IMG/VR virus record: IMGVR_UViG_3300021185_002958
Coordinates: 1-28,514 of that record
Direction: 5' to 3' (one strand)
Source of the DNA: a virus
DNA length: 28,514 bases
Within the stretch, counting starts at the first letter, position 1. Every line of letters starts with the position of its first letter. A program made the translations under genes and the position numbers. Shown here in pieces: positions 3,413 through 27,563 of this stretch. The notes beneath the pieces are model-generated. The model searched no databases, was not told the DNA's origin, and worked only from the letters and a program-made list of their open reading frames with translations.

Positions 3413-4391
3413 TATGAACGTACCATTATTTACAGAAAGAATACCGTACAAGCCTTTTGAATATCCTGAGTACTATACCGAGGGTTGGTTAAAGCAAGCT
3501 CAAGCGTTTTGGTTACATACCGAAATACCTATGAGTGGTGATGTTAAAGACTGGAATGAAAAATTAACTCCAGAAGAAAAAAACTTAGTAGGTAATATAC
3601 TATTAGGTTTTGCACAAACAGAATGTGCTGTGTCAGATTACTGGACGCAAAAAGTTGTTGGCTGGTTTCCTAAACATGAAATACAACAAATGGCTATGAT
3701 GTTTGGATCGCAAGAAACGATTCACGCAGTAGCATATAGTTATTTAAATGAAACTTTAGGTCTTGAAGATTATGAAGCTTTTTTACACGAACCCGCTACA
3801 GCTGCTAGGTTTGATAACCTTGTAGCTTACGAAGGCAATGATCCTGTAGGTATAGGTAAATCATTAGCTACGTTCTCAGCTTTTGCTGAAGGGGTTAGTT
3901 TATATTCTGCCTTTGCTGTATTATACAGTTTTCAAATGAGAAACCTATTAAAAGGTATTGGCCAACAAATGAAATGGTCTGTAAGAGATGAATCATTACA
4001 TAGTAAAATGGGTTGTCAACTATTTAGACACATGTGTTCACAAATACCAGGATTAAAAGAAGAATGTAAAGAGCATGTATATGATGCAGCTTTAACTATG
4101 CATAATGCTGAAATGACTTATATATCTAAGTTATTTGAAATGGGTGATATTGAAGGAATAACAGAATATGACCTTAAACATTTTATTAAAAAACGTACAG
4201 GTGATAAACTTAAAGAATTGGGCTACAAAGCAGAAGGAAAATTTAAATTTGAATATGACCAAAAGTCAATTGAAAAAATGGCTTGGTTCGATCATCTTAC
4301 TGGGGGTCACACTCACACTGATTTCTTCGCTATTAGGCCGACTGACTATAGTAAAGCAAATGAAGGCGAAGACTTTGAAGATGTTTGGTAA
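3402..4391 (+). CDS. nrdB: Class I ribonucleotide reductase, beta (radical) subunit
   Basis: NrdB houses the di-metal/radical cofactor that starts reduction of ribonucleotides by NrdA. All expected positions are present in this 329-aa protein: Glu74 (FAQTEC), Glu105 and His108 (SQETIH), Tyr112 at the place of E. coli radical Tyr122, Glu163 (AFAEGV), Glu197 and His200 (RDESLH). Spacings match E. coli exactly for the first two acids (31), Glu105-Tyr112 (7), and Glu163-Glu197 (34). Trp37 fits the radical-transfer Trp48 region. The first ligand is Glu rather than the usual Asp. The C-terminus, EDFEDVW, is the expected NrdA-docking tail. ATG 3402 is used; ATG 3414 is an equally possible start. It pairs with nrdA downstream, with one small gene between. 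Confidence 0.95.
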   Translation: MKNNMNVPLFTERIPYKPFEYPEYYTEGWLKQAQAFWLHTEIPMSGDVKDWNEKLTPEEKNLVGNILLGFAQTECAVSDYWTQKVVGWFPKHEIQQMAMMFGSQETIHAVAYSYLNETLGLEDYEAFLHEPATAARFDNLVAYEGNDPVGIGKSLATFSAFAEGVSLYSAFAVLYSFQMRNLLKGIGQQMKWSVRDESLHSKMGCQLFRHMCSQIPGLKEECKEHVYDAALTMHNAEMTYISKLFEMGDIEGITEYDLKHFIKKRTGDKLKELGYKAEGKFKFEYDQKSIEKMAWFDHLTGGHTHTDFFAIRPTDYSKANEGEDFEDVW

Positions 4392-4408: not shown

Positions 4409-4636
4409 ATGAAAGAAAGTAAATTAATAGAGATGCAAAATAGAATAGCTAATTTAGAGGCTATATTTAAACAGTTAATACCTGAATTAAACGGTATAAA
4501 AGATTTATCTTTTGGTGTTTTTGATACAATAAAATTAATGCCAGGTTATGAAGATGCTATAACTCAATTAAAAATTAAATCTGATGAAGCTAAAGCTAAA
4601 TTAGAAGAAAAAAAGTTTGAAACAGATGTGGAATAA
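4409..4636 (+). CDS. Small coiled-coil protein between nrdB and nrdA, 75 aa
   Basis: The start is ATG 4409; a TTG at 4385 in the same frame is less likely. The product begins MKESKLIEMQNRIANLEAIF and ends in a charged heptad-like helix (LKIKSDEAKAKLEEKKFETD), so it is probably helical and oligomeric. It lies 17 bases after nrdB and overlaps the nrdA start by 11 bases, suggesting translational coupling with the reductase. I recognise no family. A role as an assembly or stability factor of the reductase is only inferred from position. Confidence 0.62.
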   Translation: MKESKLIEMQNRIANLEAIFKQLIPELNGIKDLSFGVFDTIKLMPGYEDAITQLKIKSDEAKAKLEEKKFETDVE

Positions 4637-6488: not shown

Positions 6489-6818
6489 TTACTGTGTGGT
6501 TATCATTATTAACTCGGCTCGTGCGTAATAACTACCACTTTTCTTTGCCCAATCCATAGCATTATAACCTTCGTCACAAAAATCTGTAAAAGGTTGTGCA
6601 CCTCTTAAACATAATAAATAAACAATATTAGCTTTATCTGCTATAATAGCATGCACTAATAGTGGTTTACCATCAATTTTTTCTGTGGCGTGGATTTGGT
6701 TTACTATTAACATTGAGTTTACTTTGTTGTAATTCCCTTCATTAATAGCGTTTAACAGTTCTGTTTCAATATCATTTGACATATTGAAAAATAACAAGAA
6801 AGATAAAATTAAGTTCAT
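6489..6818 (-). CDS. Ankyrin-repeat-like protein, 109 aa (last gene of the late cluster)
   Basis: Two ankyrin-like units are visible: GKPLLVHAIIADKANIVYLL, followed by CLRGAQPF, and then DEGYNAMDWAKKSG. These have the usual helix-turn-helix and GA/G-x-x-A-x-x-W-A pattern. Ankyrin units bind other proteins, so it may target a host protein. The start at 6818 gives a hydrophobic N-terminus (MNLILSFLLFFN) that could be a poor leader without a clear cleavage site. An internal ATG at 6782 (MSNDIETELL) would give a cytoplasmic 97-aa form, and I cannot decide between them. It is separated from the gene upstream of it by an 81-bp gap holding an inverted repeat. Confidence 0.7.
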   Translation of the reverse strand: MNLILSFLLFFNMSNDIETELLNAINEGNYNKVNSMLIVNQIHATEKIDGKPLLVHAIIADKANIVYLLCLRGAQPFTDFCDEGYNAMDWAKKSGSYYARAELIMITTQ

Positions 6819-8433: not shown

Positions 8434-11400
8434 TTATTTATTTGTTAGTTCGATTATTTTATTAACTCTATCATCTTCGTATTTAAGCTCTTTTATTTCT
8501 TTTTTAGTTAAACCTAGGTTTATTAAAGACTTTACTTGATCCGATTTATTAGTATCAACTATAGAGTCTCTACGTTTCATCTGTTTTATCTCTTCTTTAG
8601 TTTTACCTTTATACTTTTCAAGTTCTTTTAATCTTTTTCTTTCAGCTCTGTCATCTATAACTTTTTGCTTTCTAGCTTTTTCTTTAGCTTCTTTTGATTC
8701 TATCTTGACAAGATCTCTTTCTTCATTTTTAGTATTAACATCCCAAGTTCTATAACCTAAAGCTAAAGCTACTCTTTGAAAAGTAGTGTTTCTAGCATCT
8801 AACATTTCAACAATTCTGTCGATTTCTACTACAGCTCTTTCAAGTGGTAGGTTAGTTATTGCTTCTGTGAGCGATGCTATAACTTGATATGAAGGGCTGA
8901 GATTTACTCTACCTTTTAAAGTTACATCCCAACCTTGCTCTTTTACTACTTCTTCATTATAATCTTTAGCTTTTATAGCATTATTTATTTTTCTAAGTTT
9001 AGAACCAACCGGTGGGCTTAAGTTTAATATTTCTAATAATGTGTTTCTATGATCTTTGCCAAAAGCATCTTTCTTTTCTTCTCTATAATATGTGAGAGCG
9101 GTATTTTTCAATGTAGATACAATAGCTCCATAAACACCTGAACCTCTAAGCATAGTGTCTACCATACTGTTAAGTATTCTTTCTTCTTTTTTATCAAACT
9201 CTTTACTTTTCTTTTCTTCATCTTCTTCGTTATCAAAACCTGGTATCAAAGCAAATGCAGCATTTTGTAATGTAGCAAATATCATACCTTGAACAGCACC
9301 ATAATATATCATTTTAGATACATTTGTTTTTTGATCACCTCTATTGTTAATAAAATCTCTAGCTGATTTATTAAATATTCTAGTAACCTGAGCGGGTGTA
9401 TTTTGAAACGCTAATATTAATCTACCAAGTGGACTAGCTTGCTGCTGAGATATTAACATAGGATCTGCTGATTGCTGAGCAACATCAGAAGCTTCTGCAA
9501 AATCTTCAAATGCTTGTTGTTCAGCTGCTTTTTGATCTAAACCTTGATTTTTTAATGTGTTTATTCTATTTCTATAAAATGTAGCACCACCTGATGCAAT
9601 AGCAAAACTATCTGCCATCTGAGTTGGTGTAAAACCTATTTTAAGTAAATAACTTAATATTGCCTGTGGTTTATTTTTAGCACCAATAGCTGCGTTAGCA
9701 AGCTCAGCCTCGTTAACATCTTTTCTAAGACCAGATCTTCTTTGTTTTAACTTAGGCGAGTTCCATAGTGTAGCAAAGTCTGACCAGTACTGTTTTTGAT
9801 TACCAAAAGCTAAAGCGGCTTTATAAGGATTATTATCTGACCAATTTAAAAAGTTAACTGATGATATAGTTTGTAATAAAGCAGATTTAACGTTCATAAA
9901 CATTATTGCTCCAACAGAATTGTTAACCCAATTATTAAATTGATTTGTTAATTTATTAGTTCCAGAAGGTCTATTAGTACCGTTTTTCATACGGTATAAA
10001 GAATCTTCCATTGCTTCTCTCCAATTAGTTCCTAAAGCAACTTCCATTTTATTTAAGTTTTCTTTAGAAAATATTACATCAGCATTTTCTATAAAGCTAG
10101 CTAAATATTGTTTTCTACCAACCTTGTTTGTTAAATTGTTTAAATCAGATATTAAACTTTCAGAATCCCAATAAGCACTAGGTTCGATCCATTTATCTCT
10201 TTTACTTATTTCTAAAGCAGCTTGATTAAACAGTTTTAATTCAGGATCTTTATTAACTATATCGTTTAATTTTTTAATATCACGTTTAGATAAACCAGGT
10301 ATTTCAAAACCACCTTCTGTCCATAGATTTACTCTTAAAGCTTGATCAAAAGTAAATTCTGTGTCTGGTGCAATTTTACCTAATTTTTTAGCTACAACAG
10401 GAAACTTTTTAAGCAAAGAAGAATAATCGTTTTTTAAAGCCTGTCTGTAATTATCTATTTCAGCAATACCTTTTTGATAAGGTTTTATTAAATTATCTTG
10501 CACCCATTTTTGTTGTTGCTCACCTTTTTTACCTTTACTATATAAGTCATACATTAAACCACTAAAGTCTTGAGCGCTTGCAGGTATTAGTTTAAAACTT
10601 TTTAATCCAGCACCACGTCTTTTAGCTACAATATCAGAAAATTTATATCTAGCTTTGATACCTTTAGTATCTTCAATCATTTTATTTATGTCTTTATCTA
10701 AAACAACCGGATCAGTTACGGTGGGTATAGAATTAGGATTGTTTTTAACAAATTGCTCTCCTTTGTTTAAAACTGTAGAAGCTTTTTTAGCAGCTTCTCC
10801 CAGCTCTTGAACTTGTTTTTTATACTCATTTTGTGCGGTATCTGTTAAAAAATCTGTTTTAGTTCCAGGAACATATATAGATTCTACTATGTTTTTAGCT
10901 AAACCTCTTGTTAATCTTTCAGCACCTAGTCTAGATGTTTTAGAAAAAGTTGTATCAATAGGATCAAAAAGCTGTGTTTTATCTCCAAATATTTGAGTAT
11001 GACCAGACAATATATTTTTTAATTCTAAAGATGTAGAGTTAGGCGAAACTATCCAACCTAGTATTTCAGACATAGTTTGAGAATTAGACTGTAAATGTTC
11101 TCCTTTGAAAGTAGATAAATCAATTTTTCCAGCCTTAATCTCAACACCACCTATATCGGTAAACGCTCTAAAACCAGCAGTAACATTAGTTTGGGCTTGT
11201 AAAGCGTTAATAACATAATCTAAACTTAAGCTTCCATTTAAATAACCATCTTTTAAAATACTAGCATTTAATTCAGCAAATTTTAAATTATTCAAACCAA
11301 CTGATGGGTCATATATTTTATCAATAGCAGCTTTTTTTTGAGCAACAGTTTGTGCATCAGTTTTACCTGCTAATATGTTTTTTATTTTAGTAAGCAAAGG

Positions 11401-14400
11401 CGATAAATTAGTTGCTTTTGAATTAAGTGGTTGAACTTTAGACATGTCTATACTATTCCATATAGCAGCCGTCTTTTTACTCCAAGTTCCATCAGCTATT
11501 AATTGATCTGCAGATTTTAAGTTTAAATTATCAAACTTATTTTTATATCTACCTGGTTTACCTTTATCTGGACCTGTTAATTTTTTTCCAGCTATATCAA
11601 AATTTCTTTTATGCGTTCCAACTATATCTGTATATGGTTTACCTTTTATTCCTAAAGCTTTATGCGCTTCTGCTGGTATTGCTTCTGCAAATTTTACAGC
11701 ATCAACAACTAACTTATCAGCAACTTTTGTATCAATACGGCTTGGACTATTTTTTGTTTTAGCATAATAAATTTTAGAATTGTCTAAAGCTTTGTTAACT
11801 AATTCGTTTTTTAATTTTTTAGCCTCTGCCTTAAAATTTGCTTGATCTTGTTTTTTATCATAGTTTTCTAAGCTTTCAGTTAAAGCTTCTTTTATTTTAT
11901 CTATCGTTGCATCATCAAGCTTGTTTATTTCACCTACAGATTCTTTTACTTCATCAATAATTATATCAGCTTCTATAGTAGAAACTTTTCCAGCTAAATA
12001 TTTTTTTAAACTTTTATAAGCTGCTTCAACAGCTTTTTTAACATTAGAAGTTGTTTTTAAAACTTTTTTAAATGTTTTTGCAAATATAATTAAACCATCA
12101 ATAACTATTTTAGGATTGTTTAATCCTAAAACATTTTTGTATTTATCGCTTTGCGTCTGTAAATCAGCTATTTGTCTATCAATAGCTTCTAATAATTTAG
12201 GTATAGTATCTTTAGGCGTTTCTTTACCTTGTAACTCTTGCCTTTCTATAAATTCTTTTTGTACTTTAGGATCGGCTAAAACCTCTGCGGTAGCATCTAA
12301 AGCTAATTCTTGAGCTATTACATCTGCTAACGTTTTAACTCTAGCTCTATTAGTTGTATTTTTACCTGTAGTATAAAAATCTATTAATTCTTGTTTGGTA
12401 GGTGTTGTATATTCAAACACACCTTCACCAACTTTAGTTTTAGCTCTACCAACTTGCTTAGGTTTAAATAAAGAAGCTAATTGTTTATTTTTAACACTAT
12501 TAGGTATCGCAGCTATTATATCATTAAAATTAGTATCTAAAAATGTTACCAACCTACCAGCGTCTTTTAATCCACCCATTTCAGCTAATACTTTTTCACC
12601 AAACTTTAATCTGTTAGCTTCATTAACTTTTTGTCTAAACTTTTTTTCTGTAACACCAGGTAATCTTGTTTTTAATGTTTCAGTTACACCTACTTGAGCT
12701 TCTTCAGTTGTTATACCTGCAATATCTCTTAATTTAGTTACTGATGCTTTTTGTTCTGCTGTTCTAGGGCTTATATCTAAATCTTCTTGTATTTGTACAT
12801 TTACATCTGTTCCATCGGTAACACCTTTTGCTTCTGTAACATCTGTTTCAAAAACCTGTTTAGTTGCAGCTTCACCTTTTTTAAACACATTGCCAACCTT
12901 ATTGTTAATTTGAGACATTATCCAACCGTTCAAACTGTTGTTAACCTCTGGATTAAAGTTTCTTATATGTGGTATTAATTCAGCAACTACACCACTAACA
13001 AAATCAGGTTTTGAAAACCCAGGTGGTTTTTCTACAGGTATTTTGCTTTCTATTAAACCAGTTAGCATATCGTTATTATATATCTCAGTAATAACCTCAT
13101 CAGCTTTACCACCTTCCCATTCAGCTTTAGTTACCTCATAATTACCATCTTCATTTTTTTGGCCAGCTAAGTTATCTATTTCTTGACCTTTTTTACCTTG
13201 AGCTTCTTTAGTTACACTTTTTTGTGTTTCTTGTTCGCCTACATTTTTTAACTCTTCATTGATTTCATTAACTCTTTCAGATTGTTTACCTGTTAAGCTT
13301 TCATCATTAACTTGATTTATAGTTAATTCAAGATTTTTCTTTTCTTTTAACAATTCTACAGTTAAACCTTGTTGTGTTTTAGATAAACCTAACGGCTTTA
13401 TTTGATTTACAACAGCTTTTGTTTCTCTAAAACTAGTTTGAATATTTTTAGCTTCTTCAGGTGTAATTATTTTTCTTCTTATTTTGTTTTCTAATTCAAA
13501 ATTAAGAGTTTTCTCCGCATTAGGTATTTGACTAACGTCTATCTGAGTTTGATCTGTTTTGACATCAGGTTTAAAAGCATCAGACATACTAGCAAAACCA
13601 TTTGCTTTTACAGAATTTCTGACTTTAAGGTTAGTGCTAAGTTGATTTAAATTTAGCAAAGTTCCACCAACACTTATAGGTGCTTTTGTACCTAATCCAG
13701 CAAATGATTCTAAAAATATTTCTTGTCTACTTAAAGCTTGACCAGCAGCTTTTTGACCTAAATATTCACCTACACCTTCACCAACCATTTCTACACTACC
13801 ACCAGCTGCAGCAGCCACTTTTGCACTTTTACCTGCTTTCACTAAAGCTGTAGTTGTTTTAGCAGCAGCTCCTCCTGATAAAGCACTAACAGCACCAATA
13901 ACTTGACCTCTTCTTTCTGATTTTTTTTGTATATCTTTTAGTTTTTCTGGATCGTTTAAAACTTTTCTAAGATCTTCTACTGTTATTTTAGAAACATCTT
14001 CAATACCTGTTGCATCTATCAATAATTCATCAAACGTAATTCCTTTTTCTAAAGTTGAACCTATTCCGTAAAACATTCCACTCATTGCTCCGGTAGCTGT
14101 ACCTATACCTGGCACAACACTTCCTGCCGCACCTCCACTAACAACACCTCCAAAAGCGTTATTTCTAACTGTTTGAGATTGAGTAACGGCACCCGCGTTC
14201 AAAGCTATAGACTCTACACCAGCCTGTACAATGTAACCTGGGTTTTGGATAGCACATAATCCTAAGCTTAAAAAACCATCACCATTTTTTTCTACACATT
14301 TTTGGAAAGCTTTAGCCTCATCTGAATCTTGGTTTGAAGCTATTAATTCTTTTTTATCTTCAAGAAATTTTTGTAAAATTTTATCTTCAGTTTCATTACC

Positions 14401-15048
14401 TTGCTCAAATATTTGTAATGAAGTTTCTAAGTTTTCAGGTTGAGCATAACCTTTGTCTACAGATCTATATATATCAGATATAACATTAGTAACTATATTT
14501 TTACCAGCTAAATTTTCTAATATTGTAGCATCTTCACCTGATGCATCTTGAGCTGCTAGAGTTTTTAATCTATATGACTCATGCCAAATATCCATTGTGC
14601 TTGGCTTATAATCAGGATTATCTTTATTTTTATCTAAAGCTAGCTGCAAACCTAGTTGTGAAAAAATAGCATCTTCTTCCTCACTAACTTTTAAAGGATC
14701 ATTAGTAGACATATTTTGACCTAAAGATTTTAAAAATTCAGGATTAAAATATTCGTCAGAATCTTCGTCAGCATAAGTTTCTGGTGATATTTTTATGTTT
14801 TTTAAATTATTTAATTTATCTGCTTCAGAATAGCTTTCAGATATTTTATCAATTGTTTTTAAACCAAGATCAATTATATTTGCAGCTTCTTTTACCTTAT
14901 CAATACCTTTTTCTACAATACCTTTTTCAGACTTAAACTCTTTAGCTTTTTCATTTGCCTCAGATAAATCTGGTAAATTTTTTTGAACACATTCTTCAAA
15001 TTGTTTTTGAGTCCAATTATTTTGTATTCTTTTTTCTTCGCAATTCAT
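8434..15048 (-). CDS. Giant internal virion / DNA-ejection protein (T7 gp16 position), 2204 aa
   Basis: This gene takes up almost a quarter of the window. By order it is the counterpart of T7 gp16, an internal core protein that is ejected and helps carry DNA across the envelope. Gly/Ala-rich hydrophobic stretches at about residues 282-330 (GGVVSGGAAGS, GMFYGIG) and 382-460 could enter membranes. Residues 660-725 resemble sigma-factor region 2 weakly (see findings). The part from about 1470 to 1980 (IPGLSKRDIKKL, WVNNSVGAIMFMN, QTISSVNFLNW, LILAFQNTP) looks like a module I associate with very large proteins of marine phages. The last 100 residues are a highly charged coiled coil. No lysozyme or transglycosylase motif was found. 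The virion role is inferred from order and size; T7 gp16 is 1318 aa. Confidence 0.78.
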   Translation of the reverse strand: MNCEEKRIQNNWTQKQFEECVQKNLPDLSEANEKAKEFKSEKGIVEKGIDKVKEAANIIDLGLKTIDKISESYSEADKLNNLKNIKISPETYADEDSDEYFNPEFLKSLGQNMSTNDPLKVSEEEDAIFSQLGLQLALDKNKDNPDYKPSTMDIWHESYRLKTLAAQDASGEDATILENLAGKNIVTNVISDIYRSVDKGYAQPENLETSLQIFEQGNETEDKILQKFLEDKKELIASNQDSDEAKAFQKCVEKNGDGFLSLGLCAIQNPGYIVQAGVESIALNAGAVTQSQTVRNNAFGGVVSGGAAGSVVPGIGTATGAMSGMFYGIGSTLEKGITFDELLIDATGIEDVSKITVEDLRKVLNDPEKLKDIQKKSERRGQVIGAVSALSGGAAAKTTTALVKAGKSAKVAAAAGGSVEMVGEGVGEYLGQKAAGQALSRQEIFLESFAGLGTKAPISVGGTLLNLNQLSTNLKVRNSVKANGFASMSDAFKPDVKTDQTQIDVSQIPNAEKTLNFELENKIRRKIITPEEAKNIQTSFRETKAVVNQIKPLGLSKTQQGLTVELLKEKKNLELTINQVNDESLTGKQSERVNEINEELKNVGEQETQKSVTKEAQGKKGQEIDNLAGQKNEDGNYEVTKAEWEGGKADEVITEIYNNDMLTGLIESKIPVEKPPGFSKPDFVSGVVAELIPHIRNFNPEVNNSLNGWIMSQINNKVGNVFKKGEAATKQVFETDVTEAKGVTDGTDVNVQIQEDLDISPRTAEQKASVTKLRDIAGITTEEAQVGVTETLKTRLPGVTEKKFRQKVNEANRLKFGEKVLAEMGGLKDAGRLVTFLDTNFNDIIAAIPNSVKNKQLASLFKPKQVGRAKTKVGEGVFEYTTPTKQELIDFYTTGKNTTNRARVKTLADVIAQELALDATAEVLADPKVQKEFIERQELQGKETPKDTIPKLLEAIDRQIADLQTQSDKYKNVLGLNNPKIVIDGLIIFAKTFKKVLKTTSNVKKAVEAAYKSLKKYLAGKVSTIEADIIIDEVKESVGEINKLDDATIDKIKEALTESLENYDKKQDQANFKAEAKKLKNELVNKALDNSKIYYAKTKNSPSRIDTKVADKLVVDAVKFAEAIPAEAHKALGIKGKPYTDIVGTHKRNFDIAGKKLTGPDKGKPGRYKNKFDNLNLKSADQLIADGTWSKKTAAIWNSIDMSKVQPLNSKATNLSPLLTKIKNILAGKTDAQTVAQKKAAIDKIYDPSVGLNNLKFAELNASILKDGYLNGSLSLDYVINALQAQTNVTAGFRAFTDIGGVEIKAGKIDLSTFKGEHLQSNSQTMSEILGWIVSPNSTSLELKNILSGHTQIFGDKTQLFDPIDTTFSKTSRLGAERLTRGLAKNIVESIYVPGTKTDFLTDTAQNEYKKQVQELGEAAKKASTVLNKGEQFVKNNPNSIPTVTDPVVLDKDINKMIEDTKGIKARYKFSDIVAKRRGAGLKSFKLIPASAQDFSGLMYDLYSKGKKGEQQQKWVQDNLIKPYQKGIAEIDNYRQALKNDYSSLLKKFPVVAKKLGKIAPDTEFTFDQALRVNLWTEGGFEIPGLSKRDIKKLNDIVNKDPELKLFNQAALEISKRDKWIEPSAYWDSESLISDLNNLTNKVGRKQYLASFIENADVIFSKENLNKMEVALGTNWREAMEDSLYRMKNGTNRPSGTNKLTNQFNNWVNNSVGAIMFMNVKSALLQTISSVNFLNWSDNNPYKAALAFGNQKQYWSDFATLWNSPKLKQRRSGLRKDVNEAELANAAIGAKNKPQAILSYLLKIGFTPTQMADSFAIASGGATFYRNRINTLKNQGLDQKAAEQQAFEDFAEASDVAQQSADPMLISQQQASPLGRLILAFQNTPAQVTRIFNKSARDFINNRGDQKTNVSKMIYYGAVQGMIFATLQNAAFALIPGFDNEEDEEKKSKEFDKKEERILNSMVDTMLRGSGVYGAIVSTLKNTALTYYREEKKDAFGKDHRNTLLEILNLSPPVGSKLRKINNAIKAKDYNEEVVKEQGWDVTLKGRVNLSPSYQVIASLTEAITNLPLERAVVEIDRIVEMLDARNTTFQRVALALGYRTWDVNTKNEERDLVKIESKEAKEKARKQKVIDDRAERKRLKELEKYKGKTKEEIKQMKRRDSIVDTNKSDQVKSLINLGLTKKEIKELKYEDDRVNKIIELTNK

Positions 15049-16901: not shown

Positions 16902-18509
16902 TTAATACGATGATTCAACTGTGTCGCTGGACACTGCGAATAATTCTCTTTTTTGATTTATACTGTTATCTAACTTAAATTTAAATGTACTAAAAAATCC
17001 TTTAACACCAGTCATGTTATTTCCAAACACTATTTCACCTGCCGTTGGCGATGAGTTGTTTATAATGTTTGCAAAGTATTTATTTTCTTTTCTTTTAAAT
17101 TTATTAGAAAACATTTCACTTTCTAAAAGTGACAAGCTGTTAGGTACATTTCCATATTTAGCTATTGGTGTCAAGGCTATATCACCTGAACTAGCAACTA
17201 CACTATCTACTATCCAATCGTTTCCTCCTTCATAGTTAACTGTTTTAAATACTTTTACAGTAGATGGTTTTGCATTCAATACAACTGTAACATCAGAATC
17301 ATTTTCTATACCATAGAAATTAGCATAAGGACTAGAGCCATAGTGACTATATATCTTACCACTATTTGTAGAGAAAAATGTAGATGTTAAACTAAACATT
17401 AATTTTGGTTGAAAAGTAAATAAACTTGTCCAACCTTTTACACTTTCATCAAATGATACTGTTTTAAATGATTCATTATAAAATATTAAAACTTCGTTAC
17501 CAGGTATTTGAGTACCTATGTTACATTTAAATGACGATGGATTACCTGATGATATTACAGATTCAACTCTTCCATATAATTGGCCAACAACTTGACCTGA
17601 TGTAGTATATTTATATATATACATACCCGCTGTTATATTTGTATTAGCAGCATTTAATGTTAATGTTACATCAACACCATCAGATGGTTGATTATATGCT
17701 TGTGGAGTTGCTGCATTTCCTGATTGAGCAACAAAACCAGTTGATCTATTTTTCTTTATAGATAGTATATAGTTTTTAGTATGGTTATCCCAACCACCTA
17801 CAATACCATTAGTAGAAGTACTTGAGTCGGTTAATTGATCTCTAAAAAAATCATGCATACCATAACCAGATATTTCTACGATCTGTCCGTTTGTAGACAA
17901 TTGTAATACACAACCTCTTTTTCTATCAGTAAAGTATTTTCTATAACCATAAGCGGCAAAGCTTAATGGATCTTTAGCTATACCATACTTACCTTGATAA
18001 GCTATTATTTGTCCAATTACTAATCTACCAGATGTAGTTAAAGCTGAACCTTCTGCGGAATATATAGCATCTTTATCTATAAGTGCTCTATTTACTTTAT
18101 CCTCTTGAAATATAATTAAGTTAGTATCTTCTGCGTATAGCTTTTGTATTGAACCATGTGCTGGATCTAAACTTCTAGTTATATCTTCTGCTACTGAAAA
18201 CTCATTAGTTTGATTTACACCTGTTCTAGAATTAAATACTCCGGAATATATTAAAGAGTTAAATCTATCTTGATTGTTAGCATTGTCTTCTACTATGTGA
18301 GCTTTAACACCTATATCTGTTGATGTATTATTATAACCACCTCTTATTCTTGACTCTTCTATAAACCAATCAGTTGCATTAACAGGTGTATATGCTTCAG
18401 GTACATTAGCATATGGTGATGCTGGTGCTGATGGAGTTTCAGCAACAACATTTGTTAATTTCTTTAACCAGTATGAGTTAAAATATTTAAGTTCTAAAGT
18501 AGCACCCAT
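16902..18509 (-). CDS. Tail structural protein, 535 aa
   Basis: This is a beta-rich protein without signal or membrane segments. Residues 48-160 (FIEESRIRGGYNNTSTDIGV, then FNSRTGVNQTNEFS, then DITRSLDPAHGSIQKLYAED, NLIIFQEDKVNRA) look like beta-propeller-type blades as in nozzle/stabilisation proteins of podoviruses. Residues 279-345 hold a copy of a segment shared with two neighbouring genes (VTLTLNAANTNITAGMYI). It is 29 bases downstream of the 1419-aa tail gene. The two may be parts of one tail hub, since they look like complementary parts of a longer nozzle-type protein. An exact role (nozzle, hub or fibre anchor) cannot be fixed from sequence. Confidence 0.72.
   Translation of the reverse strand: MGATLELKYFNSYWLKKLTNVVAETPSAPASPYANVPEAYTPVNATDWFIEESRIRGGYNNTSTDIGVKAHIVEDNANNQDRFNSLIYSGVFNSRTGVNQTNEFSVAEDITRSLDPAHGSIQKLYAEDTNLIIFQEDKVNRALIDKDAIYSAEGSALTTSGRLVIGQIIAYQGKYGIAKDPLSFAAYGYRKYFTDRKRGCVLQLSTNGQIVEISGYGMHDFFRDQLTDSSTSTNGIVGGWDNHTKNYILSIKKNRSTGFVAQSGNAATPQAYNQPSDGVDVTLTLNAANTNITAGMYIYKYTTSGQVVGQLYGRVESVISSGNPSSFKCNIGTQIPGNEVLIFYNESFKTVSFDESVKGWTSLFTFQPKLMFSLTSTFFSTNSGKIYSHYGSSPYANFYGIENDSDVTVVLNAKPSTVKVFKTVNYEGGNDWIVDSVVASSGDIALTPIAKYGNVPNSLSLLESEMFSNKFKRKENKYFANIINNSSPTAGEIVFGNNMTGVKGFFSTFKFKLDNSINQKRELFAVSSDTVESSY
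17475..17675 (-). other. Shared beta segment, copy 3 (535-aa tail protein, residues 279-345)
   Basis: The encoded segment opens VTLTLNAANTNITAGMYI and closes EVLIFYN. It matches the segments in the 1419-aa and 473-aa genes by the pattern T-I/L-x-L/I-x-A-A-N-x-x-I-x-x-G-M-x-I, followed by a beta-rich stretch of about 45 residues. Confidence 0.6.
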
Positions 18510-18538
18510 GTTTTATTATTACTTGTTTTTTGTTATTA

Positions 18539-21500
18539 TTACGTCCAGCCATTTGTTCCAGGAACAGGTCTTGCGCAGCCAATACAAGATCTTGCAAATT
18601 TATCACTACATGTATTAGCATCTCCACTTATTTTAATACCACTTGAATTAAACTTAGCTGATGAATCTATTTGGTTAAAAGGCTCTGCAGGGTTAGATGC
18701 TGTTGAAAACCCGTAGAATGGTGTTGTATTACTAGCTGATTGATGTGTAAAAGTACTTGTTAACCCAGCATCTGTGTAAAATATATCTACATATTCAGAA
18801 TAAGGCATTGGAGCATACTTAGGTGTGTTACCTGTAGCGCAGGTATATGCGGTTTGAGGTGAAGAAAGATTATATAAATAACTTTTTGGAGTTTTATTAT
18901 CAGTAACGTTACTACCATCTTCAACAACACACGTGCTGTAATATAAATCATTTGAATTAACCCATAAACATAGTGAATCTGAGTAAGCACCTGCATATTC
19001 CGTATAAGCATCTTTAGCAACTATAGCATATTCTCCAACTGAATTAAATGCAAAAGCAGTTGAACCATATCTAGTACTGTTTATAGTACTGTTTGTCCAA
19101 TCACCATTTGCTTGTATATTAGAACCGTTGACATCATCTATTTGTTGCCAAGTAGCATTTGCATCTGCTCTATGATAAACAAGCCATTCTACACTCATTG
19201 TAGCAAAATTAGGACCACCTTGAGAACTACCATATGAATACAACTGTTGCATGTTACATTGAAAAACAACAGTACCTTGTGTTACTGCACTACCTAATTT
19301 ATTTATAAAATTTGAATCATTAGTGTTTGCTGAAACAGTTAAACCACTTATTTTAGGGTTATTAAAATCACTAGCCGTTAAAGTATTATTAGATAAATAC
19401 CAAACAGCGGTTCTTGTGTTTGAGCTAGTTGTATTGTTAGGAACAACTGATTGTTGTGTTGCTGGTATACCCGAGCTAACTACACCTTGAGCTACACATC
19501 CAGACTTTGAACTAGAATTTAAAGGTACAGCACCAACGGTTATAACCTGTTGCTTAGTAACACTTTTAGTATTTAATTGAGGAACGTTGTTTAGTATAGC
19601 ATCTTCAATTTTTAATTGTAAAGTATAAACACCTATAGGTGTAGAGTTTGCTGTTTTAGTAACAACACCAGTTGTATTATCAGTTATTTGAAAATAACTA
19701 CCTGGTGATTGTGAAACAATACTATATCTTAATCCTAAATTACTATTAGTTATTGATCCATTGTAACCTTGTCTTGTAACACCTACATTATCACCAGCGC
19801 TAACCACAGCGTCTGGCAAAGAAGTACCATCTACAAATACAGGATCTAAATTAGTTAACTCACCTGTAAAAAGTATTGTACTTGTGTCGCCACCAGAGTT
19901 GGCTACGGTTGTAAAAACAAAAGTATAGTTATAAACTTCTTTAGAGCTTTTGTTTACAGTTCCAGCTGTACCATCATTATAACCAGCTGCAGAATAATTA
20001 AAAGTATTTACTAGTGTTTCTATTTTATACCCTGTACCAGATGTTTTAATTTTAAATTGACTACCAGCACCTATGTTTTCTGTAAATGTAGAGCCATCAT
20101 ATGTTATGTTACCTGTAGCTCTTGTTGTACCTGCTCCGTCAACAACAGTGATAGCAACTTGAGCTATTTGAGTATTAGCAAAATTACTACCTTGATTATT
20201 CTGCGGATAAAATATAGCTGTAACATCTGTGTTAGCAGCCATGCCTTCTGTCTGCGAATAGCTCAGCGCTGAAAGTTGACTTACACCATCAAAACCAGTT
20301 TCAACATCTGCATTTAAATCAGCTATTAATCCAGCTGTAGTAGTTTCATAAAACAACTGTAACAAACTATCAACAGGCTCTGTTTCAACAATTGATAAAT
20401 ATGGAGCCATTGTTGTTTTTGTAGTACCTACTGTTGTAGTACCAGCATTAGACGTGGCTAGTCGAGCTATAAAAGGATTTGTATCTACTTGATAAAACGG
20501 ATCTCCTGTTGTTATATTAGTAGCACCCATTGATAAGTCATTAGCTGTGGCTATAGTATCAGCCGTCATAGATAATGGTAAAAACTGTGAGCCAGCTGCT
20601 GCAGAATTTACAGGAAAAAATTGTACATTACTTGTTGCTGTATTATTATTAACTCTACCATAAAGTTGCACTGAACTTCTAAATTGTTTTTGTTGATCAG
20701 ATGTTTCGTTTAAATCTCTAGGTATTTTATTTATATTGTCATTTAACAAAACAACATTTGCTGTTTTACCATCTTCTGATGGATAAGTTATCGATGTAGA
20801 AATTGGATAGCCGTCTAAGAATCCTGGTAAATAAACATTATAATATTCTTGCTCTTGTTGTTTAACAACAACTTTATAAGAATACCAGCCTAATGGATTT
20901 GGTAATGTATAAGCAAATTTAACGTCAGGGTTATTACTATTAGAGCTGTATAATAAATCATTAACCTCTCCATCAGTTGTTATTGTATAAGCCGCACCAA
21001 CGTTTGCTACATTAGTTACTTTAACAAAATCTGTATACTGACCTCTTAAATATGAATTTAATGTAGGTACGTTTGTTTGACCAGTTGACAAAGTAAAAGT
21101 AAATGTGTTACCACTTATGTTTGTTGGAGTGCCTGTAGTATTAAACCCTTGACCTATTTTTTCGGCATATAAACCAGGTTCACCTGCATTTGCTGTATCA
21201 CTTGTTATTGATTCGTTGACAACAACTTTTAAAGCATCACCAAACCATTGGTTTAAATTTTGAGTACTAGCTTTGTATGGGTGATAAAAAGTTGAACCAC
21301 CAAAAAAGTTTCCAGCCAAACTTAAACCTGCATCTACCGATGAAAGAATAACAGATGACTGTCTACCAAATTTATCTGATAATACAAAACCTACTTGATA
21401 ATTTCTATTTTGTTTTAATGTATGATTAGGATATTCTGCCCAGTTTGTAAACGTAGTAGTGTTTTTAGCTGAAGCGCCAACGTTATAGTTTAGTGTGTTA

Positions 21501-22798
21501 GGAGGAGTATGTTGACTTTGATAATTACCATAAATAACTCTGTTACCTGAAACTTCTTGTGACAAAGCTCTAACAGGAACACGATCATAAACTCTTACCG
21601 TTTGTCTTTCTGGTAATGTTTTAAAAGGCTTTCTTGACTGATAATTGTATGTGTAAATATTAGTGTTTTGGTTTGGCCAACTAGTATCCACAACGTTTAT
21701 TGAATCTAAAACTTTAACTGCTCTAGCGTCTGACTCTTTATATAATATATCTATTCCTATTATTTTATAACTGTCAGTATCAGCTGTTCCTATTTTAGTT
21801 TGTTGATCAGGTAAAGGTATTAATAGTTCTACATTTTGTACACCATTTTCCATAAAAGCAAGTATAGTACTTCTATAAGCAGCATCTTCATCGCCATCAA
21901 AAAAATAACCTTTTTGTTGAGGTATAAAAGCTGGCTGTGTAAATGGAGCCATAATAGAATACTCTAAGTCATCAAATTTAAATCTATAACTAAATCTAAC
22001 AAATAAATCTTGAAGAAAGTCTGGATCACCAGGCCAATCACTACCTTGATTAAAATCATAAGTAATGTCTTTACCAGTCATTGTAGTGGTTAAAAATGTT
22101 AAAACATCTAAATTTGCTACAGTTGCCGCTGTGTTTATAGTTACAGTTACACCAGACACATTTGTTACATATATATATTGATCAGCCGTTATGCTTGGGC
22201 CAATGATATTCATACCCTTTTTTATAGCTACGTTAGCTGCTGATAATGTTATAGTTGTAGAACTACTTGCTGCTCCAGCCGTGCTTGTTGTAGATTTTAA
22301 TAACTGTAAAGGCTCGTATGGATTATATTTAGCAACTGATATTTGATTTTCTTTTGTATAATAACCTAGCGTTTTAGTTACGTTTATTTTTCTAGGTTGA
22401 TTTCTATTATCTGTCCAAAATAAAAGATCTTCCACTAAGTTTACACCTATGATAGGACTTGACTTGCTAAAATTTAAAAAAGAACCAGTAACTAATGGTG
22501 TGTAGTTAGATCCTTCATATTTATATATCCAATGACTTGTTTCGTCTGTTAAAAAAGTATAAACAACACTATTATTATTATCTGTAAAATAGCCTATAAT
22601 TTCTAAGTTAGGATTTCCTGTGTTACTAACCTGAACTAAAGTGTTACCTAGTATGTTTTCTAATGCACCTATATCATCATCTTCAGACTTACCTACAGAT
22701 ATATTATTTGCATCTCTATACTCACCGTTAGGAATCAATCGGTCGTCAAGATCTTTATTCATCTTGGACCTTAGAAAGCTATTCTTTATTTCAGCCAT
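18539..22798 (-). CDS. Large tail protein with nozzle/stabilisation-type N-terminus, 1419 aa
   Basis: The N-terminus (NSFLRSKMNKDLDDRLIPNG, then EYRDANNISVGKSED, IGALENILGN) is the hallmark start of podovirus stabilisation/nozzle proteins (T7 gp12 or P22 gp10 type beta-propellers). Residues 178-240 carry the shared beta segment. Residues about 977-1089 look cadherin/Ig-like (LGLRYSIVSQSPGSYFQITD, then GVYTLQLKIED). The distal 320 residues are Ser/Thr/Asn-rich, fibre-like, and hold most of the Cys residues, ending CSDKFARSCIGCARP. This suggests a tail body protein that also carries a surface-exposed binding region. It is nearly twice the length of T7 gp12 (794 aa). The distal part may decide host range. 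Confidence 0.75.
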   Translation of the reverse strand: MAEIKNSFLRSKMNKDLDDRLIPNGEYRDANNISVGKSEDDDIGALENILGNTLVQVSNTGNPNLEIIGYFTDNNNSVVYTFLTDETSHWIYKYEGSNYTPLVTGSFLNFSKSSPIIGVNLVEDLLFWTDNRNQPRKINVTKTLGYYTKENQISVAKYNPYEPLQLLKSTTSTAGAASSSTTITLSAANVAIKKGMNIIGPSITADQYIYVTNVSGVTVTINTAATVANLDVLTFLTTTMTGKDITYDFNQGSDWPGDPDFLQDLFVRFSYRFKFDDLEYSIMAPFTQPAFIPQQKGYFFDGDEDAAYRSTILAFMENGVQNVELLIPLPDQQTKIGTADTDSYKIIGIDILYKESDARAVKVLDSINVVDTSWPNQNTNIYTYNYQSRKPFKTLPERQTVRVYDRVPVRALSQEVSGNRVIYGNYQSQHTPPNTLNYNVGASAKNTTTFTNWAEYPNHTLKQNRNYQVGFVLSDKFGRQSSVILSSVDAGLSLAGNFFGGSTFYHPYKASTQNLNQWFGDALKVVVNESITSDTANAGEPGLYAEKIGQGFNTTGTPTNISGNTFTFTLSTGQTNVPTLNSYLRGQYTDFVKVTNVANVGAAYTITTDGEVNDLLYSSNSNNPDVKFAYTLPNPLGWYSYKVVVKQQEQEYYNVYLPGFLDGYPISTSITYPSEDGKTANVVLLNDNINKIPRDLNETSDQQKQFRSSVQLYGRVNNNTATSNVQFFPVNSAAAGSQFLPLSMTADTIATANDLSMGATNITTGDPFYQVDTNPFIARLATSNAGTTTVGTTKTTMAPYLSIVETEPVDSLLQLFYETTTAGLIADLNADVETGFDGVSQLSALSYSQTEGMAANTDVTAIFYPQNNQGSNFANTQIAQVAITVVDGAGTTRATGNITYDGSTFTENIGAGSQFKIKTSGTGYKIETLVNTFNYSAAGYNDGTAGTVNKSSKEVYNYTFVFTTVANSGGDTSTILFTGELTNLDPVFVDGTSLPDAVVSAGDNVGVTRQGYNGSITNSNLGLRYSIVSQSPGSYFQITDNTTGVVTKTANSTPIGVYTLQLKIEDAILNNVPQLNTKSVTKQQVITVGAVPLNSSSKSGCVAQGVVSSGIPATQQSVVPNNTTSSNTRTAVWYLSNNTLTASDFNNPKISGLTVSANTNDSNFINKLGSAVTQGTVVFQCNMQQLYSYGSSQGGPNFATMSVEWLVYHRADANATWQQIDDVNGSNIQANGDWTNSTINSTRYGSTAFAFNSVGEYAIVAKDAYTEYAGAYSDSLCLWVNSNDLYYSTCVVEDGSNVTDNKTPKSYLYNLSSPQTAYTCATGNTPKYAPMPYSEYVDIFYTDAGLTSTFTHQSASNTTPFYGFSTASNPAEPFNQIDSSAKFNSSGIKISGDANTCSDKFARSCIGCARPVPGTNGWT
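22085..22267 (-). other. Shared beta segment, copy 2 (1419-aa tail protein, residues 178-238)
   Basis: The encoded segment opens TTITLSAANVAIKKGMNI, then has VTNVSGVTVTINTAA and closes DVLTFLT. It matches the copies in the two flanking genes in order and spacing, and lies as an insertion between two propeller-like parts. Confidence 0.62.
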
Positions 22799-22801
22799 GT
22801 A

Positions 22802-24223
22802 TTAAAATTTAAGCCATTTAGATTTTTGTCTCATAACTTGAACTATTTGATCAAGTTTTATATTAGATAATCTAATCTTAGCATTTCTTAGTTTAGCACT
22901 TCTTTCTTTTTTAAATCTTTGTACTATGTATTCTGGTACTTTAGCACTAACAGATAATATTGAATGTATAATATGAGAGTATAAAGCATCTTCTGCTAAC
23001 TTAGGTATTCTAGCATCAAGATCATAAGCATTTCCATCTGATATATACTCTATAACTACAAGCTTACCTTTTAAATCGTTACTAAAAGATATTTTACCTT
23101 CTCTGTCGTTTATTGTAAACCAACCATTGCGCTGACTAGTTTCAGGGTTAAGACCATATCTTTGACCTAAAGCTAATTCATAAAAGTTATTTTGATTTAA
23201 AGTGTCTGCGGTGTTTTCATCTTGTGCGGTAAATGCTCCTGAAATTCTTCTTGGATCATTAGATGCCCAAGCTGCTTCAACTTGTGATGTAGTAGTTATA
23301 TTAGAGTCAAAACTATCTTGTGTTGGCGTACCAAGATTATCTTGAGCTGGTGAAGCGTAAGGATCTGTTGTTAATGTATTTGCTGGAAATATAGTATGTT
23401 GAACACCAAACTTATCAGTCCAAGACATTCTAACATAATTAACATAATCTTGAGGTATAATAACATTTAAAGCATTGTTTACAGTAAGCTCTTGTGATCT
23501 AATGCTTCTAAGTGTATCATAACTAAATTCTTGTAATCCACGTTTTGCATGAAATATTACATCAGTTCTTTTTACGCTAGGTATTAATTTACCAGCACCT
23601 ACGTATGCTATTAAAAAATTATCAATAACATCTGTTAATCTAGTATATTCATAACTACCATAGTTTTCTTCTATAGCAGTTTCTTTTAATTGTATTTTTA
23701 AATAATTGTTAGCTGGTAAATCTATAGCTGCAGTAACAATATTATTAACCATAGAATATGGTTCATCAAATTGAAACAACACTGCTGTTGTAGCATTACC
23801 TGGTAAAGCAATAGGTTTGTCTAAAGTTATTGCAACACCATTTACACTTACTACTTTAGCACCAGTAGGATTATTAGTTATACCACCACCGTATATACTC
23901 ATACCAGCTATTATGTTTGCGTTAGCCGCTGCTATTTGTATAGTTGCTGATGCAACCCCACCATTTTCAGTTGCTACAGCATTTTGAACTGTAGTAGCTG
24001 GTGTTATTTCAGTCCATGTTAAAGCATCTGTACTTTTATATAATAGAAAATTATTCAGACCGTATTGACCGTTAGTAGGATCAGAACTTCCAAATATTAA
24101 ATTTGTATCAAAAGTAGATGTTATATTTATACCTACACCTCCTGTTGCTGAGTACTGCTGTTGGGCTCCAGCGTAATATTGTCTATTAGTTTCGGTGACT
24201 AATCCACCATCTGGTCTTGGCAT
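22802..24223 (-). CDS. Head-tail adaptor-like structural protein (T7 gp11 position), 473 aa
   Basis: Two parts are visible. Residues 1-155 are beta-rich, Ala/Asn/Thr-rich, and contain the shared segment (92-151). From about 170 the protein is alpha/beta: RLTDVIDNFLIAYVGAGKLI, then DVIFHAKRGLQEFSYDTLRS, then VIIPQDYVNYVRMSWTDKFG. The C-terminus is a basic helical tail (VQRFKKERSAKLRNAKIRLS, ending QKSKWLKF). The helical DVIFHAKRGLQEF segment resembles the alpha-helical core of adaptor proteins that attach the tail to the portal, and its place before the nozzle-type gene agrees with T7 gp11. No enzymatic motif. It is 3 bases from genes on each side. It could also be a neck protein of another class. 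Confidence 0.7.
   Translation of the reverse strand: MPRPDGGLVTETNRQYYAGAQQQYSATGGVGINITSTFDTNLIFGSSDPTNGQYGLNNFLLYKSTDALTWTEITPATTVQNAVATENGGVASATIQIAAANANIIAGMSIYGGGITNNPTGAKVVSVNGVAITLDKPIALPGNATTAVLFQFDEPYSMVNNIVTAAIDLPANNYLKIQLKETAIEENYGSYEYTRLTDVIDNFLIAYVGAGKLIPSVKRTDVIFHAKRGLQEFSYDTLRSIRSQELTVNNALNVIIPQDYVNYVRMSWTDKFGVQHTIFPANTLTTDPYASPAQDNLGTPTQDSFDSNITTTSQVEAAWASNDPRRISGAFTAQDENTADTLNQNNFYELALGQRYGLNPETSQRNGWFTINDREGKISFSNDLKGKLVVIEYISDGNAYDLDARIPKLAEDALYSHIIHSILSVSAKVPEYIVQRFKKERSAKLRNAKIRLSNIKLDQIVQVMRQKSKWLKF
23771..23950 (-). other. Shared beta segment, copy 1 (473-aa adaptor-like protein, residues 92-151)
   Basis: The encoded segment opens ATIQIAAANANIIAGMSI, then has KVVSVNGVAITLDKPIA and closes AVLFQF. 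It shares the pattern of the copies in the next two genes. Confidence 0.62.
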
Positions 24224-24226
24224 ATA

Positions 24227-25153
24227 TTAACTTTTTTGATTCATTTCTTCTTGTTGTATTTGACCCGCAGCAACTTCTATTATTTCACGATCTCTTACAA
24301 CAACACCTGCATATAATAATATTTTTATTATAAGTTCTGTTTGCTCTGATGAGTGTATTTCAAAGTTGTTTGATGTAGCTGGTGAAAAAACATATTGAGT
24401 GCTACCAGAAAAATTCCATATTGGATCAATAGGTTTTCTTAAATAATTAACTGATATACCACTTTGTATAGTTGTAGGATATACATTTAAGTAATTACCT
24501 TTGTAAGTATAAATAGGGTATGTAGTTGTGGGTTTTGTAAGATTAGAACCTAATAAATGATATAACTCGCTTGATCCAACTCTTTCTAATTCTTGTATAG
24601 GTAAAGCTCCTGCTGTATATATAACAGTACCTAGTCTATAAAACTGCTTAGCATAAAGATTTATATTTATAGAATCCCCTGCTGTTGGTTGAGATGTTAA
24701 AATTAAATTACCATTTGTTATAGTATATTCAGCATCTGTTAATTGAACATTAGCAACGAATACGCTTGCTATAGCGTTTTGATTTGCTAAAGTTAAAGCG
24801 TTACCTGATAAAGCGTATGATAATTGTGGGTTTACAGCTGTGAACTGTTGATTTGCGGAAGAGTTTCCGGAGTATTGTGAAGGTAATCTAAAACCGCTTG
24901 TAGTATATGTTGCGGCATCTATTTCTTTAAATATAGATAATTTTTCATCTATGTTAATTTGTCTATCGGAATAGTCTAAATCAACTTGAGGCACACGTAA
25001 TTGCTGATTCATATCTTCAGCGTATTTTTCAAATATTTCTAATTGAACTTGCCCACCTATTTTATTAAACTCAACAGGTGTCATATAACCTCTCTGTTCT
25101 TTATTTAGTATTAATAAAACGGTTTGATATACAGTATTTACGTTTATTGCCAT
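24227..25153 (-). CDS. Putative neck/tail structural protein, 308 aa
   Basis: The helical N-terminus (VNTVYQTVLLILNKEQRGYM, then TPVEFNKIGGQVQLEIFEKY) is followed by a beta-rich middle (residues 95-180) and a mixed C-terminal domain (VGSSELYHLLGSN, EIHSSEQTELIIKILLYAGV). The opening MAINVNTVYQTVLLILNKEQ looks like one I associate with phage structural clusters, but I know no established function. It lies 3 bases upstream of the adaptor-like gene, after the cUUCGg terminator. A head-completion or tail-adaptor role is inferred from position only. Confidence 0.68.
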   Translation of the reverse strand: MAINVNTVYQTVLLILNKEQRGYMTPVEFNKIGGQVQLEIFEKYAEDMNQQLRVPQVDLDYSDRQINIDEKLSIFKEIDAATYTTSGFRLPSQYSGNSSANQQFTAVNPQLSYALSGNALTLANQNAIASVFVANVQLTDAEYTITNGNLILTSQPTAGDSININLYAKQFYRLGTVIYTAGALPIQELERVGSSELYHLLGSNLTKPTTTYPIYTYKGNYLNVYPTTIQSGISVNYLRKPIDPIWNFSGSTQYVFSPATSNNFEIHSSEQTELIIKILLYAGVVVRDREIIEVAAGQIQQEEMNQKS

Positions 25154-26051: not shown

Positions 26052-27563
26052 TTAAGCTTGGAATAACACGAAGTTATTAGCAGCTTGAGTTACAAGACAT
26101 CTCTCAGATAAGAAATGAACTTGCATTGCATCTAGTGCAGAGTTGTATACACCTCCAACAGATCCAGTGATCCAAGACTTGTAACGTCTGTCATCAGCTT
26201 CTGAAGATCTGTATCTTACGTGTAAGAATGGTCTTCTAACGTTTGTACCTAATAGTTGGTCATAAACTGTAGAAGTTCCAGCAGGTACTAATACACCATC
26301 TATTCCACTAACTGAAACAGCACCTCTTGTAGAAGCGTCGTTTAAGTATTTCCAGCTAGTTTTGTAGAAATCATAAGAACCTCTTCTAAATCCAGAGAAT
26401 CCTAAGTTAAGTGCCATTTGCTCAGAGTTTTCAAATAAACCGTAAGCAGTACCACCTTGTGAACCACCAGAGATTTGAGATAACATATCGTCAAAACCAA
26501 GATCAGTTGATCTGTTTAAGAATAACATGTTTTCTTCAATTGCTCCTTGAGTATCAAGGTTTTTAAGGATTTGATCAAAATCACTGATACCAGTAGCAGC
26601 AGAGAATCCTGACATGATGTTACCTCTTGTTTGGATAGCTTGGAATAAACCTTGCGTTCCATGAGCAGCAACAGCAGCATTAAATCCAGTATTACCAATG
26701 TTACCAGCAGCAGCTTGTACAGCAAACTGACCAGTAGCAGAAGCTAATTCACCTTCAATCATTGCCATTTCTAAGTAGTCATCAAATCTTAGTCTTGTTT
26801 CAGACTCAGACTTTAGATACCATAAGTATCCTGATGTACCATCTTCAGTAGCAACTTCAACCCATCCAATCTGTGCAGTGTCAGAACCATTAATTTGGTA
26901 TCTGTCTTTTATAATAATTGGTTGGTTATTAAATTGAGTGAACTGTGGTTGAGCAGCAGCAAGAGATTGCCCTGTTCCTTTTGCAAATACAGAACCGTAT
27001 ACAAATAGTTTCAAGTTAGCAGCAGAACCTAAAGAGTTTAGGTTAGCGGCAGTAAATGAAGTAACTTGTATTTGAGTTGCAGGTGCACCACCAGCAGCTA
27101 CTACAGGAGCAACAACTACTACAGCTTTAACTGTAACACCAGTGTCAGTGTTCATAATAACTACAGTGTCGTTAAGATTAATAACACCAATTGTTTGAAT
27201 AGGTGTACTTTGACCACCACCAGTTACAGGTGATACAGAAGCAGTAGAAGGAATTGATATAATTCCGATTGCAGCTCCACCAGCACTTGTTACTGAACAT
27301 CCTGTGTAAGAGATGTGTAGTCTGTTTTGTTCTGACCAGATTACTTGATCAGATGTCATTGGCATTTCAGCGCCAACCATTCTTAAGAAACCAGATAAAG
27401 TTCTGTTTCCATATCTTTCAACCTCAGCTTCATAAACTTCAGGAAGGTATTGTTGAGCGAAGTCATTTCCACCTCCATTAGCAAAGTTTAAGTAGTTGCT
27501 GTTTAAGATTTGTTGTTGTAGTGACGGCACGATCGAGCCGTATACAGGATTAATTTGTCCCAT
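26052..27563 (-). CDS. Major capsid protein, 503 aa
   Basis: This forms the head shell. The N-terminal part AEVERYGNRTLSGFLRMVGA, followed by EMPMTSDQVIWSEQNRLHIS, looks like the family of capsid proteins from T7-like phages of marine bacteria. Residues about 88-195 form an Ala/Gly/Val/Thr-rich beta insertion (LNDTVVIMNTDTGVTVKAV), probably surface-exposed. The C-terminal half includes FRRGSYDFYKTSWKYLNDAS and ends YRSSEADDRRYKSW, then LSERCLVTQAANNFVLFQA. Gene order supports it: scaffold-like gene 15 bases upstream and a strong terminator after it. Sampled GC (37-47%) is higher than in the tail genes (about 32%), consistent with codon selection in the most expressed gene. An HK97 fold is expected from family knowledge. 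Confidence 0.88.
   Translation of the reverse strand: MGQINPVYGSIVPSLQQQILNSNYLNFANGGGNDFAQQYLPEVYEAEVERYGNRTLSGFLRMVGAEMPMTSDQVIWSEQNRLHISYTGCSVTSAGGAAIGIISIPSTASVSPVTGGGQSTPIQTIGVINLNDTVVIMNTDTGVTVKAVVVVAPVVAAGGAPATQIQVTSFTAANLNSLGSAANLKLFVYGSVFAKGTGQSLAAAQPQFTQFNNQPIIIKDRYQINGSDTAQIGWVEVATEDGTSGYLWYLKSESETRLRFDDYLEMAMIEGELASATGQFAVQAAAGNIGNTGFNAAVAAHGTQGLFQAIQTRGNIMSGFSAATGISDFDQILKNLDTQGAIEENMLFLNRSTDLGFDDMLSQISGGSQGGTAYGLFENSEQMALNLGFSGFRRGSYDFYKTSWKYLNDASTRGAVSVSGIDGVLVPAGTSTVYDQLLGTNVRRPFLHVRYRSSEADDRRYKSWITGSVGGVYNSALDAMQVHFLSERCLVTQAANNFVLFQA

Follow-up and report, generated by a model that had tools for sequence, protein, structure and literature searches.

Three consecutive tail genes of the virus record IMGVR_UViG_3300021185_002958 (IMG/VR) share a short, beta-rich segment, which raises the question of whether this segment is a mobile or duplicated surface module and what it could contribute to the virion. 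The whole 28,514-nucleotide stretch analysed is referred to below as the window, and relatives of its virus are designated by L numbers. The tail features are the following.

16902..18509, minus strand: 535-aa protein, assigned as the C-terminal half of the muzzle (Pfam crAss_MUZ_C and gp44 matches)
17469..17747, minus strand: optional insertion in the 535-aa protein (residues 255-347), holding the module (core about 278-346)
17616-17669, minus strand: motif in the 535-aa protein (residues 281-298)
18539..22798, minus strand: 1419-aa protein, assigned as the N-terminal half of the muzzle (phrog_14478, gp44 and phi38:1 matches)
22091..22282, minus strand: copy of the module within the 1419-aa protein (residues 173-236)
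22205-22255, minus strand: motif in the 1419-aa protein (residues 182-198)
22802..24223, minus strand: 473-aa tail protein, with a ring-type C-part (residues ~185-473) and a 184-aa N-terminal extension
23768..23959, minus strand: copy of the module within the 473-aa protein (residues 89-152), with five predicted strands
23894-23947, minus strand: motif in the 473-aa protein (residues 93-110)
24227..25153, minus strand: 308-aa ring-type protein, module-free in the window

Judged from its sequence, the virus is a marine crAss-like virus: the window encodes a muzzle homologous to PhicrAss001 gp44 (muzzle structure in PMC10172136), one of the characters by which a crAss-like virus is recognized. 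The 1419-aa protein corresponds to positions 1-185 of phrog_14478, its residues 7-161 align with gp44 residues 8-179 (hhalign probability 95.6%), and two of its blocks (1-173 and 262-486) show 32-36% identity to the phi38:1 muzzle. The 535-aa protein matches Pfam crAss_MUZ_C (E = 1.4e-10, 41.9 bits; cut-off 27) and gp44 residues 1035-1353 (hhalign probability 96.8%). Because the two proteins match different parts of one PHROG family and of gp44, they are identified as separate halves of one muzzle, so that the proteins carrying the segment, originally described as otherwise different, are not so for this pair. The muzzle consists of two genes in the window (16902-22798) and in those relatives whose contigs reach that far, and of one gene in phi38:1 and elemoF; in other crAss-like phages the gene break lies elsewhere, namely, at the loop of the 535-aa module in phi13:2 and ctfjg026, and farther upstream in Panino.

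The C-part of the 473-aa protein matches the virion structural family phrog_13977 (E = 8.6e-38) and is 26-38% identical to proteins of 269-307 aa from Panino, ctfjg026, elemoF, phi38:1 and phi13:2, all of which lack residues 1-184; with single crAss001 ring sequences the C-part gave no alignment. Short ORFs resembling the C-part were also observed in L019, L069 and L078 (E down to 3e-26). The 308-aa protein shows a weak match to PhicrAss001 gp34 (hhalign probability 41.6%); its residues ~92-171 (window 24641-24880) form a different inserted domain (VFVANVQLTDAEYTITNGNLILTSQP...) that is missing in shorter cultured homologues. Elsewhere in the window, judging from sequence, 3402-4391 and 4617-6350 (plus strand) resemble the small and large subunits of ribonucleotide reductase, 6489-6818 (minus strand) resembles a small ankyrin-repeat protein, and 8434-15048 (minus strand) encodes a 2204-aa protein located where crAss-like phages have their large virion cargo proteins.

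The motif T..[LI].AAN..I..GM.I occurs in all three tail proteins, as originally noted, and nowhere else among the nine proteins scanned. Its chance expectation in 6302 residues is 1.5e-7, and none of 2000 shuffles contained a match; given that the motif was picked after the fact, profile evidence was given more weight than these statistics. In whole-protein BLASTP comparisons, the 1419-aa and 473-aa proteins matched with E = 2e-4 and the other two pairs with 0.03 and 0.03, too weak to prove homology, and pairwise BLASTP was dropped for that purpose. Iterated profiles started from any one of the three segments regained the other two, with last-round E values of ~1e-10 to 1e-16. A profile built from the 473-aa family only placed the 535-aa segment correctly at 40.6 bits (0 of 5000 shuffles scored as high), and the 1419-aa segment, also in the right place, at only 9.2 bits (5 of 5000 shuffles as high). 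By these profile comparisons, all three segments are members of a single sequence family.

The module comprises ~60-70 residues with five predicted strands. An AlphaFold2 model of residues 1-185 of the 473-aa protein (mean pLDDT 83) places the module strands at 92-97, 109-111, 123-128, 131-139 and 145-151. The model of the 535-aa protein, of low confidence overall (mean pLDDT 55; about 61-79 in blocks of the module region), places them at 281-285, 297-301, 307-320, 325-331 and 341-344; thus, where the original prediction called for structures to be compared, the strand order agrees between these two copies, within the low confidence of the second model. A fold search with the 473-aa N-terminal model returned three viral models below E 0.001 and no solved structure at E ≤ 0.001; two unnamed phage proteins matched over 69-74 columns at 2.6-2.8 A rmsd. 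With the module alignment as query, Pfam, PHROGs and PDB yielded neither a named family nor a ligand assignment, although module members touch the PHROG virion families 6005 and 5838. No Pfam match to BACON was obtained at E ≤ 1 (five window proteins and 33 module members), and none to Ig-like domains or carbohydrate-binding modules (CBMs); the scattered single-member matches were to unrelated families (best E = 0.022). The conserved positions are a Gly-Met turn, an Asn and alternating hydrophobic residues, and polar residues form no common cluster; this pattern points to a scaffold more than to an active site shared by the copies.

Comparison of filled and empty sites shows to what extent each copy is an insertion. 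At the 535-aa site, 37 relatives including the window fall into two classes, with 89-97 residues in 10 and 6-19 residues in 27, and on the tree of the remainder of the protein at least six presence/absence changes are required. L029 and L035 form a close pair of which one site is filled and the other empty, and in their DNA alignment, mostly 85-100% identical around the junction, the sole difference at that point is exactly the inserted block, the two being 88-100% identical from residue 41 up to the junction and 82-95% beyond it. The module in the 535-aa protein is an optional insertion; in phi13:2 and ctfjg026, the loop that holds it accommodates ~350-480 other residues and a gene break. The muzzle sites of cultured relatives are cleanly empty: the 1419-aa site is near-empty in phi38:1, where window residues 173-262 lie opposite muzzle residues 186-192, whereas every relative within the clade has extra residues there, nearly all recognizably the module. 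The 473-aa copy lies inside the N-terminal extension, which is entirely missing from cultured relatives; all relatives found to have the extension also have the module, and in L070-L073, L075, L079 and L080 the module is doubled in tandem. Insertion into the host protein, as originally claimed, is thus borne out at the 535-aa site, which is polymorphic within the clade, and at the 1419-aa site, which is empty in cultured relatives and always filled in the clade, with the clean absences that had been sought seen at the 535-aa and muzzle positions; the 473-aa copy belongs to an extension that cultured relatives do not have. When the two halves are mapped onto gp44 (PMC10172136), the 1419-aa copy would fall close to where the first Ig-like domain begins, and the 535-aa copy within a turn of the propeller. 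At the main muzzle module site of L054 (9431-13462), a further, Gly-rich insert (GGSGYTNTNGVATTVTPAGG...) seems to sit inside the module, so that one insertion would be nested in another.

The module extends well beyond these three sites. Relatives carry it at further positions in the N-terminal half of the muzzle (~54-66, marginal; ~451; ~530-540; ~718-731) and near residue ~30 of the 535-aa protein, and a 1328-aa protein has two copies. In L022, L032 and L064, the 308-aa ring protein has it in its central loop, next to an inserted domain of another kind. A small protein whose sequence begins with MIRNYY has two alternative sites: among distinct sequences, 50 are filled at the second only, 2 at the first only and 9 at both; L120, which belongs to the genome of the close relative L003, has the first site as the filled one. 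Counted across the clade, the sites number about ten and the kinds of protein six. In a search of whole records, all 15 marine relatives had 2-7 module matches, and none was found in ctfjg026, phi38:1, phi13:2 or PhicrAss001. The module profile also matched, weakly, the tail sheath of pelagiphage HTVC008M (E = 1.8e-4) and a virion protein of cyanophage S-WAM2 (E = 8.7e-5), segments that resemble the module by profile but score low; T4, P-SSM2, S-SM2, syn9, HTVC010P and phi14:2 gave no match. Searches of cultured phages by tblastn with single modules, an artificial consensus or the N-terminal domain, a method poorly suited to such short, low-complexity queries, gave nothing useful (one chance match, E = 4).

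The copies mostly descend within their sites. In a tree of 105 copies, in which few columns were available and many forks are unresolved, 16 changes of site label were counted, compared to 60.7 with shuffled labels, and the copies at the 535-aa site, like those at the first site of the small protein, come together as a single group (99% support in each case). Between genomes, some copies that lie in different proteins reach 54% identity and are more alike than the three copies of the window are to each other, which indicates that copying between sites did occur. In close pairs of the 1419-aa family, dN/dS of the module is 0.05-0.14, about the same as in its surroundings; at this site, the one measured, the module is under purifying selection, with no sign of the diversifying selection that might mark a receptor-tracking domain. 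Since copies cluster strongly by site, the module is best described, on these sequence comparisons, as an old, duplicated, optional building block rather than an actively hopping element. Of the two terms in the original prediction, 'duplicated' is upheld, with clean insertion in several virion proteins, and current mobility is not. Deletion or homologous exchange is the most likely route by which a site gains or loses its copy. Mosaicism was observed in L029, where the 473-aa gene groups with those of L028, L034 and L042 and the 535-aa core with those of L035 and L041.

What the module does is a matter of conjecture, for which we give an account that we hold to be about evenly poised between right and wrong. 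A small, beta-barrel-like accessory module of five strands and ~60-70 residues would have been copied in the distant past into loops in several of the virion proteins of the marine crAss-like clade and then kept, doubled or dropped site by site. Because the sites tolerate some 60-480 extra residues, they are probably outward-facing loops, from which the module would project on the rings, the muzzle and the small accessory protein. Through many exposed copies per virion, the tail could then hold on to the host surface (capsule or another polysaccharide) weakly and multivalently, close to its tip and ahead of muzzle opening; variable loops rather than a conserved pocket would confer specificity. 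There is a precedent in the carbohydrate-binding modules of neck and tail proteins in lactococcal 936 phages, two of which bind the host (PMC6669499). Multivalent adhesion is our leading guess, to which we give about the same weight as to all its rivals together. That one function is shared by every site is an assumption, given that most relatives lack the 535-aa insertion and that two sites are never empty in the clade. A broader proposal, which we regard as possible but doubtful, is that a single barrel family could serve as the common surface kit of the clade, on the rings, both muzzle halves and the small protein, so that occupancy switchable by recombination would tune tail-host contact while leaving the receptor-binding fibres untouched.

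The strongest rival to adhesion is structural cementing, whereby the barrels would pack on neighbouring ring or muzzle subunits and stiffen the tail surface without binding the host. Several observations are compatible with it: the module is found in ring proteins and in the muzzle, which adjoin each other, is under purifying selection, conserves a scaffold without a polar cluster and always fills the 473-aa and 1419-aa sites within the clade; moreover, the I-domain of the crassvirus capsid is an inserted barrel that adds wall thickness and stability (PMC10172136). However, the module is optional at the 535-aa and small-protein sites, even among close relatives, and cultured crAss-like phages are built without it, such that we consider cementing a serious but distinctly less probable explanation than adhesion. 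A further alternative is that the modules are near-neutral passengers, barrel cassettes that loops tolerate and recombination spreads, without a selected role at the majority of sites, as might be suggested by the at least six changes at the 535-aa site and by nested and unrelated insertions in the same loops. This we find rather improbable, considering the low dN/dS in close pairs (about 0.05-0.14, from the always-filled 1419-aa site), the site-faithful descent and the retention of copies in 15 of 15 marine relatives.

An actively mobile element carrying the module between genes could account for about ten sites, for clean junctions and for identities of up to 54% between sites of different genomes, higher than those within the window. 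Such an element is nevertheless very unlikely, because copies cluster by site, the in-frame insert of 64-93 residues is too short for a mobility enzyme and the junction has no obvious target duplication; neither near-identical copies at different sites (the best cross-protein identity is 54%) nor an encoded mobility enzyme, either of which would mark such an element, was found. Convergence of simple Thr/Ala/Val-rich strands is the least credible explanation of all, its appeal lying in the simple composition, the weak pairwise BLASTP and the 9.2 bits of the 1419-aa copy that 5 of 5000 shuffles equal, against which stand the 40.6 bits of the 535-aa copy (0 of 5000), reciprocal recovery from every seed and the same predicted strand order in two copies.

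Ig-like domains inserted in phage structural proteins are optional surface beta-domains, some of them adhesive. Compared to such domains (examples in PMC5292684 and PMC13370021), the module is shorter, with five predicted strands, and lacks an Ig-like Pfam match. Like the CBMs of 936 phages, it is a small optional 'brick' in several virion proteins (in that case the neck, major tail protein and Dit), but those modules resemble known binding modules and two of them bind host cells (PMC6669499), whereas here no known module matches and the function is guessed. In BACON repeats of gut crAss-like phages, domain duplication and transfer have likewise affected tail-associated proteins (PMC6949934); however, these form tandem arrays, whereas the module described here is mostly present as single copies over several proteins, and no BACON domain was found. 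For crassviruses, length variation of the muzzle by insertion and a beta-barrel insertion in the capsid, the latter unrelated in sequence to the module, are already described in PMC10172136, the available portion of which does not describe one module recurring in rings, muzzle and a small protein; among open-licence papers, no account of such a distribution was found, and domain shuffling is general in phages (PMC10684548). At the level of fold, there is a hint of the FCCH domain (PF16190), in that UBA6/UBA1 chains rank 1, 3 and 4 among solved structures with non-significant E values and an FCCH-annotated phage protein appears low in the viral list. Kinship with FCCH was not supported by the Pfam profile, since 11 records had no PF16190 match at E ≤ 10.

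Accessory virion domains, BACON repeats and muzzle insertions were thus known; what appears new is a module without a Pfam or PHROG name spread over six kinds of protein, where optional surface domains are mostly known from one or two proteins at a time. A single family with sites filled and empty in close relatives provides natural matched pairs for testing such add-ons, and the sites show where the crassvirus tail can take up foreign domains in its loops. A model of the module, which at present has no name in Pfam or PHROGs, would aid annotation of marine virion proteins.

The major capsid protein, which is 35-48% identical to those of phi38:1, elemoF, Panino and ctfjg026, carries an insertion of its own.

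26976..27314, minus strand: insertion in the major capsid protein (residues ~84-196), a variable domain

The suggestion that this insertion may be of similar kind to the module finds no support in sequence: profile-profile comparison (hhalign) gave a probability of 0.2%, on which a fourth module copy was rejected, and the 473-aa profile did not match it. By position and size, it fits the E-loop I-domain of crassviruses (PMC10172136). The capsid of L003 (L003:4692-6176) is 97-100% identical to that of the window (26052-27563) outside the insertion domain, and within this domain it is 100% identical (101 residues) to L014/L015, the rest of the protein being ~85% identical to the latter. This pattern is apparently the product of a recent I-domain swap, seen at a junction in one contig only, for which an assembly chimera is also conceivable. 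At capsid residues 61-75, just before the insertion domain, third-base identity at four-fold sites is 0.83, compared to 0.44-0.55 in neighbouring blocks, for divergent capsid genes and loci chosen without bias; this may suggest a recombination-prone flank, with similar values reached in other parts of the gene.
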